Source of the DNA: Thermicanus aegyptius DSM 12793
GTDB lineage: Bacteria; Bacillota; Bacilli; Thermicanales; Thermicanaceae
Direction: 5' to 3'
Assembly: GCF_000510645.1 (NCBI RefSeq)
Contig: NZ_KI783301.1
Span: 3,053,788 to 3,117,787 of the forward strand
DNA length: 64,000 nt
Made by a program: the position numbers and the translations under genes. Position 1 is the first letter of the stretch; each line of letters opens with the position of its first letter. Under the pieces are notes generated by a model. That model was not told where the DNA came from and did not search any database. It saw nothing but the letters and a program-made list of their open reading frames with translations. Below, piece after piece: positions 10,057-15,326 of this stretch.

Positions 10057-10295
10057 GGGAATCCCCCCTTGTATTGTCCACCTAAGGTTTTCCCCTTTGA
10101 ACTTTCCTTTTTCCCTTTACCGGAATGTATACTCTATCCTATTCACTCCGTTTCCCTTCGTTCCAAAAGAGGTCCCGTACAAGCCCCCCCATTTTCCGGG
10201 AGCCCATTTCGTATTGGGTAAACAGCCCGTTCGAAACGAGAAAGCACATCATACGATATAGGAGGCGAATGGATATAAATGATGGGGGTTTTGCG

Positions 10296-11546
10296 ATGAT
10301 CTTACAAAACCAAGAAGTGATCCACGTATTGCTGGCCGCTTCGATTTTGTTAGCTTTTGCCCGCCTTTTCGGTTGGATTATGGAGAAGCTGGGGTCCCCC
10401 CGGGTGATCGGAGAAATAGGCGCAGGAATCCTCCTCGGCCCAACCCTCCTGGAGTGGCTTCTTCCTGATCTATGGCGATTTATCTTCACAGGTGTATTGG
10501 AGGAAGATCTTCTCCTCTCTGTCCTCTATTGGTTGGGATTTTCCTTGCTCATGTTTATCTCCGGCGTTGAACTCAAATTGGAATGGAAAAAGGAATACAG
10601 CCGATTAACGGCGACCCTTGTCCTGCTCACGACGACAATCCCTTTTCTAACCGGGATTATATTTACAGATCTCTTCCATTGGGAGGTCTTTTTTGGAGAA
10701 GCCAAGAACCCATTGGCGTTCTCTCTGGTCATGGGAATCGCTTTCGCCGTCATCTCCATACCCGTCATCTCAAAAATTTTCTTTGATCTGGGAATATCCC
10801 ACACCTCATTTGCCCAGATTAATTTAACCATCGCCGGAATACATGACCTTTTCTTATGGGTGATCCTTGCCTTTGCTACGGCACTGGTTCATGAGGGCTA
10901 TGGATCTTACTCCCTCCTTACCCCCCTCATTACCACAACAGGGTTTATCCTTAGTTTTGCCTGGTTTCTCCCCAACCTAATTTCACGATTCAGATGGTCG
11001 TTGGCTTCGGAGGAGAACAGCCTCTCTTCGACCATGATCCTTCTTTGGGTTTCCGTGAGCCTGGCCGGTTTATTGAGCATTGATATGATGTTTGGCGCTT
11101 TGGCCGCCGGTTTATTCGTGCGAAGAGTGGAAAACGCATCGGTTAAAACCGGAAAAATGGTGGAATTGTTAAAGAAGGTCTCCTTGTCCAGTTTCATTCC
11201 CCTTTATTTTTCACTGGTGGGATTCCAGCTTGACCTACTTCACCATTTTCCTCTCTTCTCCTTTCTCCTGATCCTCTTTCTAGCCACCCTCATTCAAGGC
11301 TCGCTGGTTTGGCTGGGAGCGAAATGGATGGGGCAGACCCCTCTTACTTCCCTCAATTTTGCAGCTGCCTTAAATGCCCGGGGAGGGCCAGGAATCGTGC
11401 TGGCCACGGTAGCGTACCAGGCGAAAATTATTAACCAGGATCTTTTCGCCATCTTTGTGATGCTCTCCCTCGTAACCTCCTGGATTGCGGGAACATGGCT
11501 TCGTTACGCCCTTCACCGGAAATGGTCCTTGATGAAGGAAGAATAG
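10296..11546 (+). CDS. CPA2-family cation:proton antiporter
   Basis: Membrane protein of 416 residues with about 11-13 hydrophobic segments. CPA2 hallmarks: GSPRVIGEIGAGILLGP near the N-terminus, VISIPVISKIFFDLG, and the conserved NARGGPGIVLATVAYQA near the C-terminus. Exchanges protons for a monovalent cation in this family; the ion is not known here. ATG 10296 is chosen because MILQNQEVIHVLLAAS aligns with the start of the second antiporter at 12432; an ATG at 10269 directly after GGAGG is a possible alternative. No cytoplasmic regulatory domain is attached, unlike its downstream paralogue. Confidence 0.85.
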   Translation: MILQNQEVIHVLLAASILLAFARLFGWIMEKLGSPRVIGEIGAGILLGPTLLEWLLPDLWRFIFTGVLEEDLLLSVLYWLGFSLLMFISGVELKLEWKKEYSRLTATLVLLTTTIPFLTGIIFTDLFHWEVFFGEAKNPLAFSLVMGIAFAVISIPVISKIFFDLGISHTSFAQINLTIAGIHDLFLWVILAFATALVHEGYGSYSLLTPLITTTGFILSFAWFLPNLISRFRWSLASEENSLSSTMILLWVSVSLAGLLSIDMMFGALAAGLFVRRVENASVKTGKMVELLKKVSLSSFIPLYFSLVGFQLDLLHHFPLFSFLLILFLATLIQGSLVWLGAKWMGQTPLTSLNFAAALNARGGPGIVLATVAYQAKIINQDLFAIFVMLSLVTSWIAGTWLRYALHRKWSLMKEE

Positions 11547-11580
11547 ATAAAGCCCTGTACAGTTGAACAGGGCTTTATCT
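11545..11580. terminator. Bidirectional terminator between antiporter 1 and the repeat protein
   Basis: Perfect 14-bp stem AGATAAAGCCCTGT (11545-11558) / ACAGGGCTTTATCT (11567-11580), loop of 8. Both strands carry only short T stretches, so termination may rely on the stem; it separates two convergent genes. Confidence 0.6.
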
Positions 11581-11588
11581 CCTTGCTC

Positions 11589-12242
11589 TTAATCCCGATC
11601 CCATCGATCATCATCCCGTTCCCATCGATCGTCTCGCTCCCATCGATCGTCTCGCTCCCATCGATCGTCGTCCCGCTCCCATCGGTCATCGTCCCGTCGC
11701 CACTTTTCCTTGCTTCTCTTCTCTCCTTTTTCCCATTCCTTTTTCTTAGGGTGGTCTTTATCCCCTCCTTTCTTATCCTGGGTTCCGAACTTTACATTCC
11801 CACTCTCCGTTCGGTCCCTATGGATGTTCTCTTTATTCTCCAATTTCCACGATCCAACATCTCCTTCTGTCCAACGATCATCCTCATCCCATTCGTCATC
11901 ATCATTGCACCACATATAATGATGGTTCTTAACCCGGGCGATATACTCTTTAAGCATCCGGAGATGCCTCTCCTTCTGTCCTTTTTCCATCGCCCCAAAT
12001 TCTACATAGGACTGAAAGAGCCTCTCATAATCCTGATAGAGCTGCTCATAGGCTTTATCCAATACTTTTTTTTGGGCTTCGGAATATTCCACTTTCTTGA
12101 CGCAATCATCATCAAATGCGCGCCCGACCGAGGTAGGCGCAGGGGAAAGGTCTACGTTCATAGTCGATGGGGCACTTTTCGCCTCAGCAGCCACCGTTAA
12201 ACTGAGCAAAAGAGCCATGATGAGGGATAATCTCTTCTTCAC
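11589..12242 (-). CDS. Secreted protein with Arg-Asp-Trp repeats, DUF2680-like N-terminal half
   Basis: Start GTG 12242 (AAGGAG 8 bases upstream) gives MKKRLSLIMALLLSLTVAAEAKS, a clear signal peptide. Residues about 40-105 contain SEAQKKVLDKAYEQLYQDYE and YVEFGAMEKGQKERHLRML, which resemble the helical DUF2680 (YckD-like) exported proteins. The C-terminal third is highly charged and ends in about five copies of RDDDRWE or RDDRWE. The repeats are also repeats at DNA level. Sits opposite in direction between two antiporter genes. Function unknown. Confidence 0.6.
   Translation of the reverse strand: MKKRLSLIMALLLSLTVAAEAKSAPSTMNVDLSPAPTSVGRAFDDDCVKKVEYSEAQKKVLDKAYEQLYQDYERLFQSYVEFGAMEKGQKERHLRMLKEYIARVKNHHYMWCNDDDEWDEDDRWTEGDVGSWKLENKENIHRDRTESGNVKFGTQDKKGGDKDHPKKKEWEKGEKRSKEKWRRDDDRWERDDDRWERDDRWERDDRWERDDDRWDRD
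11596..11702 (-). repeat. In-frame tandem repeat, 18-21 bp units
   Basis: About five units built on CGATCGTCTCGCTCCCAT (plus strand), of 18 or 21 bp, coding RDDRWE / RDDDRWE. Unit length is a multiple of three, so copy-number change keeps the frame. Confidence 0.85.
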
Positions 12243-12431
12243 ACCTATCACTCCTTGTTCATACTCTTTTTTAGGCAGTTTTTAGTATCACCCCAACGTA
12301 AAGACCTATCCCAACTGGAAAAAATACCTATTCTCGCCCGAAAACGACCGGCTATAGTCCCTTAACCATACAACATGAGCAAACAACTCATAGGATAATA
12401 CACATACTTCGTCTGAAAGAGGTGCTTGTAC

Positions 12432-14078
12432 GTGTCATTAACCAGCACGGAAGTGGTTCATCTTCTCCTGGCCGCTTCGACTCTCCTTCTTTGTGCTCGC
12501 CTATTCGGGATGTGGATGGAGAAAATCGGTTCTCCTAGGGTCGTGGGGGAGATCGGGGCAGGAATCCTCCTAGGGCCTTCTTTCTTCGGGATGGTGGCCC
12601 CGGATTTATGGCAATGGCTTTTTGCAGGGATTAAAGGAGAGGATCAGCTTCTTTCTGTCCTCTACTGGCTCGGCTTTGCTCTTCTCCTTTTTGTAACGGG
12701 GTACGATATGCAATTCCGTTTCTATAGAGGGGAAGGAAAACTGATCACCACCTTGTTACTCGCAACGACGATCCTTCCCTTTTCCATCGGTTTTTTTTAT
12801 AGCGACCTTTTCCCTTGGCGTCATTATATGGGGGCTTCCGGAAACGAACTTTCTTTTTCCTTGGTCATGGGAATCATCTTTTCCCTCACTTCCATCCCCG
12901 TGATTTCCAAGATATTTCTTGATCTGCACATCTCACACACCTCATTTGCGAAAATCATTTTAATTATTGCAGGATTTCATGATTTAATCTTGTGGGGGAT
13001 TTTATCGGTCGCTTTGAGCGTTTCTCTGGGAACCACTCTTTTCGTTCCTTCGCTGTACGCCTATTTCGTCCCCATCCTTCTTCTCATCCTGCTCATTGGG
13101 GTTATTCTGTGGAGAAATGGAAGCTCAAAATTTCCCCGGTTTCCCATCGCCATCCACGAAGAAGGAGCGATCGCATTCTCCCTTGTTTTTTTATGGTTTT
13201 TCTCCAGCATGATCAGTTCCCTAGGGATGGATATCCTCCTTGGCGCATTGATCACGGGGATCTTGATGCGCACCATCGTCGATGCGAAACAATTCACCTT
13301 AGGGAAAAGCTTGCATGCCATCTCGATGTCCATCTTCGTTCCGATCTATTTTGCATTGGTGGGTTTCCAGATTGACTTACGTCATCCGTTTCCCCTTCTT
13401 GATTTTCTACTCCTCTTTATCTCTGCTACGATTTTACAAATCCTCCTAGCATGGTTCGGAGCCCGTTTCAACGGGCAATCTCCCAGGAGTGCCCTGAATT
13501 TCGCGGCAGCCTTAAATGCGAGAGGCGGTCCTGGAATCATCGTGGCATCCGTCGCCTACCAGGCAGAAGTGATTAACGGTGATCTTTTCACGATGTTTAT
13601 CTTTCTCTCCGTCCTTACTTCCTGGATGGCAGGCGCCTGGTTAAAAAGGGTGATGAAAAAAAAGGAGCCGCTCATGAATGAGCTGAAGACCGAAAAAAAA
13701 TTCCCTTCCCCCTTTTATTATCAAAAAACGGAACGTCCCCTGAAACAATTGGCGATTTATCTTTATGAACAGGACCGTCATCGATCGGAACCCCTCCATC
13801 ATCTCATTTTGCAAAACGCCCGGGAACACAACATGCTGGGGGTTACGGTCTTTCGAGGCATTGCAGGGTTTGGAAAAAGCAAACGCATTCAATCGATTCT
13901 GAAATTTGAAGCACTCCATTATCTTCCTGTGATGATTCACATCATCGATACGGAAGAGAAAATTAACTCTTTTCTTCCCAAAGTAGAGACACTCCTCCGG
14001 GAATACGGGAGCGTTGGAGGGGTTTTCACCCTCTCTTCTGTGGAAGCTACGTTCTTTCATCCGGAAAGATGGGAATAA
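12432..14078 (+). CDS. CPA2 cation:proton antiporter fused to a DUF190-like domain
   Basis: Residues 1-405 are a paralogue of the antiporter at 10296: GSPRVVGEIGAGILLGP, SIPVISKIFLDLH, NARGGPGIIVASVAYQA. After the last membrane segment a linker leads to a cytoplasmic domain (about 425-548) with QLAIYLYEQDRHR, LHHLILQNAREHNMLGVTVF, RGIAGFGK and LPVMIHIIDTEEKI: this matches the PII-like DUF190 domain as recalled. DUF190 proteins often lie beside crcB; here crcB is the next gene. Start GTG 12432 has AAAGAGGTG 7 bases upstream. The domain probably senses a ligand and gates transport, which is inference. Confidence 0.82.
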   Translation: MSLTSTEVVHLLLAASTLLLCARLFGMWMEKIGSPRVVGEIGAGILLGPSFFGMVAPDLWQWLFAGIKGEDQLLSVLYWLGFALLLFVTGYDMQFRFYRGEGKLITTLLLATTILPFSIGFFYSDLFPWRHYMGASGNELSFSLVMGIIFSLTSIPVISKIFLDLHISHTSFAKIILIIAGFHDLILWGILSVALSVSLGTTLFVPSLYAYFVPILLLILLIGVILWRNGSSKFPRFPIAIHEEGAIAFSLVFLWFFSSMISSLGMDILLGALITGILMRTIVDAKQFTLGKSLHAISMSIFVPIYFALVGFQIDLRHPFPLLDFLLLFISATILQILLAWFGARFNGQSPRSALNFAAALNARGGPGIIVASVAYQAEVINGDLFTMFIFLSVLTSWMAGAWLKRVMKKKEPLMNELKTEKKFPSPFYYQKTERPLKQLAIYLYEQDRHRSEPLHHLILQNAREHNMLGVTVFRGIAGFGKSKRIQSILKFEALHYLPVMIHIIDTEEKINSFLPKVETLLREYGSVGGVFTLSSVEATFFHPERWE

Positions 14079-14191
14079 ACCCCTCGCTTCTTTATTCTTT
14101 TTTGGCTCATTTCACGAATAAAGGAAAATAAGATATAATTGGGGGTAGGTTTTTGTCCGGAGTCTTCCGGTGAAATGAAGGAGCGATATGA

Positions 14192-14581
14192 GTGGAAAAA
14201 TTACAGTTTTTAATCGCCGTTGCGACAGGGGGGGCTTTAGGGGCAATCGCTCGGTACTTGGTCACGCTTTTTATCGGGGATCGAATCGGAGGGGTTTTCC
14301 CATGGGGCACATGGGTGGTTAATCTGGTGGGCTCTCTTTTGATTGGCTTTATCTTTACCCTGAGCGTGGAGACCACAGCCCTTTCGACGAACCTGCGGCT
14401 CTTTCTTATCACCGGCTTTTTAGGCGGCTTTACCACCTTTTCCTCTTTCGCGAACGAAAGCCTTCTTCTGTTCCGCCAAGGGTTTAATACCATGGCTCTT
14501 CTGTATATGGTAAGCACCAATTTTCTGGGCATTCTCTTCGTCATCCTAGGCTCCGCCTTGGCCCATTGGTTCATCCGATAG
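14192..14581 (+). CDS. crcB: Fluoride ion channel CrcB/Fluc
   Basis: Dual-topology fluoride channel, 129 residues, four membrane segments. Family motifs: GGALGAIARYL, GTWVVNLVGS (the Asn that lines the pore), and TGFLGGFTTFSSFANES with the Phe box and the Thr/Ser-rich sodium-site loop. Start GTG 14192, with AAGGAG 8 bases before; an overlapping ATG three bases upstream is out of frame. Only one crcB copy is seen, so it would be a homodimer. No fluoride riboswitch could be recognised upstream. Confidence 0.93.
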   Translation: MEKLQFLIAVATGGALGAIARYLVTLFIGDRIGGVFPWGTWVVNLVGSLLIGFIFTLSVETTALSTNLRLFLITGFLGGFTTFSSFANESLLLFRQGFNTMALLYMVSTNFLGILFVILGSALAHWFIR

Positions 14582-14677: not shown

Positions 14678-15136
14678 TTATCTAATTCTTTGATCCGACA
14701 TGTTCATGAAGTTAATTCGACGATGAATTCCCTTAGTGGTAGAATCAGATGCCGTGCTGGTCTGCTGAAGCATCCCAAAGAAGCAGTTCGATCGGCTTAC
14801 TGCGCGCGGTTGCGGTGAGGTAGGGTGGCAACGAATCAAATAAATTTGGAGTAAAAACTGTTTAGAATTGGAATCTACAATACTTTGGGATAAGGTATAA
14901 ATTTTATCTACCCTTATGCAGGAATCCACCTTTAAGGTTCCCTCATCAAGTTCGCTACCGGTTAACATCACAATATAATCTTTTGCTGCTAAGTTCGAAG
15001 TAATAGCCGCAACCACTATATCCGCTGTTCTGATGTTATAATCATCATTAGATAAAACAAGAACAGGGCGTTTTTTATTCGAAGTCAAATCACTGAAAGG
15101 AATAGGAACTAATAAAATATCGCCCTGTTTATACAT
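14678..15136 (-). CDS. MazF/PemK-family toxin with unusual C-terminal tail
   Basis: Type II toxin, a probable mRNA endonuclease. Residues 1-90 fit the family: MYKQGDILLVPIPFSD, KRPVLVLSNDDYN, IVVAAITSN, CIRVDKIYTLSQSI. The start ATG 15136 overlaps the antitoxin stop by 8 bases (ATGTATAA). Beyond about residue 93 the usual KKIG/L-rich ending is missing and is replaced by a Cys/Ser/Arg-rich tail that looks like a chance frame (SRSNCFFGMLQQ); base composition changes there too. The protein may be a truncated toxin extended into foreign DNA. Confidence 0.7.
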   Translation of the reverse strand: MYKQGDILLVPIPFSDLTSNKKRPVLVLSNDDYNIRTADIVVAAITSNLAAKDYIVMLTGSELDEGTLKVDSCIRVDKIYTLSQSIVDSNSKQFLLQIYLIRCHPTSPQPRAVSRSNCFFGMLQQTSTASDSTTKGIHRRINFMNMSDQRIR

Positions 15137-15326
15137 TATTCCAAACCTCGTCATCAATATCATTGTCCCAAAAATCTATGCCGCTCTCACCGGCAGACAA
15201 TAAATCCTTGAATACCTGATTATTCTGCTTATTTTTTAAAAATAAAATATAATCAATAACTTCTCGTACTTGATTTTCTGGAATTTCATCAATTAATTTT
15301 AATAAAATGCTCTTACCTGCATTCAT
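15129..15326 (-). CDS. Antitoxin of the MazF-like pair, 65 aa
   Basis: Starts MNAGKSILLKLIDEIPENQV with GAGGTG upstream at ATG 15326. The pattern ENQVREVIDYILFLK followed by an acidic C-terminal half (ESGIDFWDNDIDDEVW) is typical of DUF2281-like antitoxins, whose acidic tail blocks the toxin. An ATG 30 bases upstream (at 15356) lacks a ribosome-binding site. Translationally coupled to the toxin through an 8-base overlap. AT-rich compared with the backbone. Confidence 0.68.
   Translation of the reverse strand: MNAGKSILLKLIDEIPENQVREVIDYILFLKNKQNNQVFKDLLSAGESGIDFWDNDIDDEVWNNV

Follow-up and report, generated by a model that had tools for sequence, protein, structure and literature searches.

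The antiporter-DUF190 fusion gene and its neighbors

The analyzed window is a stretch of 64,000 nt from the genome of Thermicanus aegyptius DSM 12793. It contains a gene for a CPA2-type cation/proton antiporter that carries a DUF190 domain at its C-terminus, and the next gene in the same direction is the fluoride channel gene crcB (Table 1). The reading frame of the fusion gene is open from TTG 12426 or GTG 12432 up to the stop codon at 14076–14078, and an SD-like GAGGTG is found 9 nt upstream of the GTG. In a Pfam search, amino acids 21–410 matched Na_H_Exchanger (PF00999, E 4.2e-39) and amino acids 439–538 matched DUF190 (PF02641, E 2.6e-25, 89 bits compared to a cut-off of 23.4). The DUF190 match covers profile positions 2–96 of 97, and the in-frame joining of an antiporter to a complete DUF190 domain is confirmed. 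The linker between the two domains was modeled with low confidence at amino acids 421–434 (AlphaFold).

Table 1. Features of the fusion locus (positions refer to the window)
Feature	Position	Strand	Remarks
Tail-less paralogous antiporter, HD/Q type	10269..11546	+	ATG 10269, AGGAGG upstream; transcription unit of its own
Strong terminator-like hairpin	11545..11580		14 bp, 3′ of the tail-less paralogue
Gene for a secreted-looking repeat protein, convergent	11589-12251	-	no Pfam match
Fusion gene: cation/proton antiporter of the CPA2 type, PII-like DUF190 at the C-terminus	12432..14078	+	548 aa
Antiporter domain PF00999	12492..13661	+	Pfam; NapA closest solved structure
HD motif, aa 183-184	12978-12983	+	position of the NapA TM5 Asp-Asp
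Internal Shine-Dalgarno (SD) motif AAAAGGAG	13660..13667	+	
Linker, aa 411-438	13662..13745	+	from last transmembrane helix to DUF190
Candidate internal ORF, free DUF190	13674..14078	+	134 aa from ATG 13674; inferred second product
DUF190 domain PF02641	13746..14045	+	TVxRGIxGFG motif intact
Promoter-like site TTCACG-17-TATAAT	14111..14139	+	ahead of crcB; consensus match only
crcB, fluoride channel (Fluc)	14192..14581	+	PF02537 E 2.4e-27

The assignment of the downstream gene as crcB, made in the initial annotation, was corroborated by the Pfam match and by a TIGR00494 score of 90.1 bits (cut-off 80.45). The gene starts 113 bp 3′ of the fusion stop codon. It is present as a single copy in the genome, and thus a CrcB homodimer is expected. 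The promoter-like site ahead of crcB makes operon control together with the fusion gene uncertain; in the scan, such sites were no commoner than in shuffled sequence. A fluoride riboswitch had been reported as missing, and this holds far beyond the locus: RF01734 was found neither in the window nor genome-wide, and even at a permissive threshold no degenerate fluoride aptamer was detected at the locus.

Upstream of the fusion gene, the terminator-like hairpin separates the tail-less paralogue, which is 50% identical to the fusion antiporter, from the fusion/crcB unit. The convergent gene in between encodes a protein with a (R)WERDD run at its C-terminus, which corresponds to about five DNA copies of an 18–21 bp unit. 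Directly after crcB lies a gene for a PemK/MazF-like toxin (14678–15163, minus strand, PF02452, E 1.5e-14). The C-terminal third of this toxin seems unlike the family, and an antitoxin-like frame may sit just upstream.

The tail and its predicted fold

The tail had been described as resembling the PII-like DUF190 domain. Matches to another family would have pointed elsewhere, but the best matches of the tail in both Pfam and the PDB were DUF190 proteins, and its fold matches were PII-like. A sequence search of the PDB with the tail gave two DUF190 proteins, TM0021 (1o51, E 9e-16) and PH1503 (2dcl, E 2e-11). In the full-length AlphaFold model of the fusion the tail was poorly confident because the underlying alignment contained no other tails, and a tail-only model (pLDDT 84) was used in its place. 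An alignment that combined antiporters with DUF190 proteins put the DUF190 rows in the wrong place and was left out. Foldseek matched the tail-only model to 1o51 with an E value of 8e-8 and a TMt of 0.86, and also to 2dcl and to the PII-like regulators CPII and SbtB, including the SbtA-SbtB transporter complex. Hence, the AF2 monomer model and Foldseek predict a PII-like ferredoxin fold like that of TM0021 and PH1503.

With these stand-alone DUF190 proteins encoded beside crcB the fusion shares the domain, the TVxRGxxGFG motif, the PII-like fold, and the crcB neighbor. It differs from them in that its DUF190 domain is attached to an antiporter, and in that the RIHxARILxLSxDLP stretch is partly changed (RIQSILKFEALHYLP). 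DUF190 is present as a single copy in the 3.66 Mb genome. A function as a GlnK-like transport modulator has been proposed earlier for DUF190 (PMC3543383).

The active-site signature of the antiporter domain

The Na+/H+ antiporter NapA of Thermus turned out to be the closest solved relative of the membrane domain by profile as well as by fold, and KefC was the second. The fusion scored 88.9 bits with the NCBIfam CPA2 subfamily TIGR00932, below the cut-off of 238.3. The NapA-type electrogenic signature, which consists of Asp-Asp in TM5 and Lys in TM10, is absent from the fusion, which instead has His183-Asp184 and Gln336, and NapA has no such tail. In NapA, the Asp-Lys pair is linked with electrogenic exchange, and therefore electroneutral exchange is plausible for the fusion, as judged from its sequence. 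Among 24 aligned antiporter sequences, HD was paired with Gln in 20 of 20 cases and ED or DD with Lys in 4 of 4. This covariation of HD/Q versus ED-or-DD/K in NapA-like antiporters might mark whether the exchange is electroneutral or electrogenic.

A CPA2 membrane domain with a cytosolic ligand-sensor tail is also found in KefC/KefB and other CPA2 antiporters with KTN/RCK tails. The sensor of KefC/KefB is a Rossmann KTN domain, whereas that of the fusion is a PII-like DUF190 domain, and the fusion additionally has the HD/Q active-site signature. The fusion is real, and it belongs with the CPA2 antiporters that have a sensor-domain tail.

Search for further antiporter-DUF190 fusions

The initial annotation had suggested a search for the same fusion beside crcB in other organisms. 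DUF190 was searched in 398 genomes of the phylum, 399 genomes of the class, and 26 + 29 genomes of two further Bacillota classes, which overlap in part with the phylum sample. No further antiporter-DUF190 fusion was found in these approximately 850 sampled Bacillota genomes, and none on plasmids among the records listed. As a consequence, the link between the antiporter and fluoride rests on a single locus. The antiporter alignment was also run against about 85,000 species genomes and yielded 24 relatives, all of them tail-less, from Alicyclobacillus, Desulfosporosinus, Nocardia, Hydrogenibacillus, and others; the scan was based on two peptide patterns only, so that absence from it is not proof. 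Neither DUF190 nor crcB was present beside any of the 24 tail-less relatives within the flanks of up to 5 kb. Together with the lack of a second fusion in the sample, this makes the fusion look lineage-specific.

Several candidates were rejected. A 585-aa open frame (G445, L039) is a stand-alone DUF190 gene whose frame is open by chance antisense to a metX-like gene. Of the FtsK-like matches, L057 belongs to an FtsK protein whose DUF190 score is below the cut-off, and L059–L061 resemble it in length and position. The long-frame proteins of G355 (by Pfam) and G805 (by reading of the sequence) are DUF190-CBS proteins (L062:4927-7883, with four CBS domains by Pfam and two copies adjacent, and L195:520-1806). 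They are like the antiporter fusion in that DUF190 is a module of a larger regulatory protein, but their partners are CBS domains, whereas the partner in the fusion is a transporter.

Linkage of DUF190 and crcB in other genomes

The evenly drawn phylum sample of 398 Bacillota genomes contained DUF190 in 72 cases. From these, 40 loci were taken, mostly better-scoring ones, with flanks of 8 kb where the contig permitted. At 38 of these 40 loci crcB was located at most about 1 kb from a stand-alone DUF190 gene, and one of the two remaining loci sits near a contig end. As a genome of 2–3 Mb has one or two crcB genes, a chance crcB neighbor within 1–2 kb is expected in well under 1% of cases. A CPA antiporter within 8 kb of a stand-alone DUF190 gene was not found at any of the 40 loci. 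Fluoride riboswitches were present at 11 of 27 different DUF190 loci that were scanned, in 7 cases upstream of the crcB/DUF190 pair and in 4 just downstream. The window's own class was different: crcB was nearby at only 7 of 29 DUF190 loci, and many of these 29 loci encode tandem double DUF190 proteins. The earlier claim that DUF190 genes often neighbor crcB thus stands for the phylum, where the link is strong but not universal, and is weaker in the class.

The four downstream riboswitches are located just 3′ of crcB-DUF190 (L147:8415-8474, L015:1311-1371, L017:1917-1977, L028:1414-1475). Where readable, the genes that follow appear to encode a dynamin-like GTPase, and a MoxR-type ATPase at three of the four loci; they are unexpected candidates for a fluoride regulon. 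Another observation was the frequent occurrence, in the window's class, of double DUF190 proteins, whose chain contains two of the domains (L063, L065, L066, L072-L084). Most belong to one family, and most have no crcB nearby.

Relatives from the same order have paired crcB genes and no DUF190. The single crcB and the DUF190 of the fusion locus may therefore have a different history, and they were possibly acquired by transfer.

A putative internal start between the domains

The motif AAAAGGAG stands 6 nt upstream of the in-frame ATG 13674, between the two domains. This SD match is longer than the 6-nt match at the start of the fusion gene. Internal ATGs were counted in the second half of each of 365 ORFs, drawn from 400 kb of the genome plus the window; an SD match of at least 7 nt was found at 5 of 1270, ATG 13674 included. 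None of 21 tail-less antiporters had an SD motif of such strength at the homologous codon; the methionine itself is also conserved among them. A small hairpin is predicted around ATG 13674, which makes the efficiency of the internal start uncertain. As Lys-Lys-Glu codons alone could give the SD match, the case for free DUF190 from this site is only suggestive.

CPA antiporters are dimeric and PII-like proteins are trimeric, with their ligand site where the subunits meet, and a free DUF190 subunit would resolve the mismatch between dimer and trimer. The PII-like PstA, for example, is trimeric (PMC4316997). In MthK, free RCK domains are co-expressed from the internal Met107 (PMC9440719). This membrane protein with a tethered sensor and an internal in-frame start that gives the free sensor resembles what is predicted for the fusion. 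Its transporter and sensor families are different, however, and the internal product of the fusion is only predicted.

Possible function of the fusion protein

We favor the explanation that the fusion is a proton antiporter under PII-like control that takes part in the fluoride/pH response, but only tentatively, and would not quite give it an even chance. After a tandem duplication of an HD/Q-type CPA2 antiporter gene, one copy probably became joined to DUF190 from a unit of DUF190 and crcB. The encoded protein would be a cation/proton antiporter similar to NapA, expected to be a dimer, and its cytoplasmic C-terminal PII-like domain would sense a small molecule. An adenine nucleotide or a related signal is the probable ligand. 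Upon entry of HF and acidification of the cytosol the tail would adjust the exchange by the antiporter, and fluoride would leave through CrcB, driven by the membrane potential. Free DUF190 may be added from the internal SD motif and ATG; it could make up the third subunit of PII-like trimers on the dimeric antiporter, affect CrcB in trans, or do both. The ligand, the transported cation, the gating and the direction of control, the internal product, the dependence on fluoride, and the origin by merger are all inferred.

Action of a PII-like protein on a membrane transporter is known from SbtA-SbtB and AmtB-GlnK. There, regulator and transporter are separate proteins and both are trimers, whereas in the fusion the sensor is covalently attached and the transporter is an expected dimer. 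HF enters the cell, acidifies the cytosol, and releases fluoride, CrcB exports fluoride by the membrane potential, and antiporters restore the pH (PMC11139923). The initial statement that fluoride-responsive genes can include cation/proton antiporters agrees with the literature: among the genes with fluoride riboswitches, only those for exporters are commoner than Na+/H+ antiporter genes (PMC11139923). We also counted for this explanation that the sole DUF190 and the sole crcB of the genome sit side by side, that both domains of the fusion are full-length and above the Pfam cut-offs, and that DUF190 and crcB are adjacent, with riboswitches, at other loci. Against it stand the restriction to one locus, the lack of a riboswitch, the perhaps separate promoter of crcB, the absence of antiporters near stand-alone DUF190 (0/40), the order relatives devoid of DUF190, and the weak link in the class (7/29).

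The same observations bear on other explanations. The real target of DUF190 could be CrcB, the fusion being just a membrane anchor and the antiporter a passenger or loosely coupled. In the phylum, DUF190 accompanies crcB (38/40) and not antiporters (0/40), the internal start could provide free DUF190, and the role is vacant, since a natural regulator that acts on Fluc at the protein level is not known (PMC11139923). However, the in-frame joining to the antiporter suggests an at least compatible function, and Fluc channels are described as passive, with no known regulator. We regard this explanation as unlikely. Rather unlikely, in our view, is a general exchanger of K+ or Na+ against H+ that keeps pH or osmolarity in balance under PII-like or nucleotide control, with a crcB that was inherited from the DUF190 donor and is now irrelevant. 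Control of a CPA2 antiporter by a sensor domain is known from the fold match KefC, crcB is not nearby at 22 of 29 DUF190 loci of the class, crcB has a candidate promoter of its own, and no fluoride riboswitch was found in the genome. Yet the only DUF190 and the only crcB of the genome are still adjacent and co-directional, and the tail-less paralogue could already cover general pH balance.

A neutral read-through fusion of proteins that were once separate, or a stop codon or indel missed in the assembly, with DUF190 made mainly from the internal ATG, would account for the singleton status among the sampled genomes and for a strong SD motif with an ATG exactly between the domains. Nevertheless, the genome is a single contig with an unbroken reading frame (one isolate), and the conserved C-terminus of the antiporter continues without a stop into the 28-residue linker; this explanation is very improbable. 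Improbable as well, though less so, is one gene with two products, a tethered antiporter and a free DUF190, that form mixed trimers as a sensor shared by the antiporter and CrcB.

The domains were all known previously; their combination, the adjacency to crcB, and the possible dual product appear to be new, and similar fusions may already be listed in databases. Although DUF190 is often encoded next to fluoride channels, hardly any experimental literature on it was found in the library searched, and its covalent attachment to an antiporter provides a specific target that is open to testing. The fusion bears on the question of whether fluoride efflux is controlled at the protein level, for which a 2024 review names no natural example (PMC11139923). 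If true, a mixed-trimer sensor shared by antiporter and channel would be a natural, previously undescribed protein-level control of fluoride efflux and pH.
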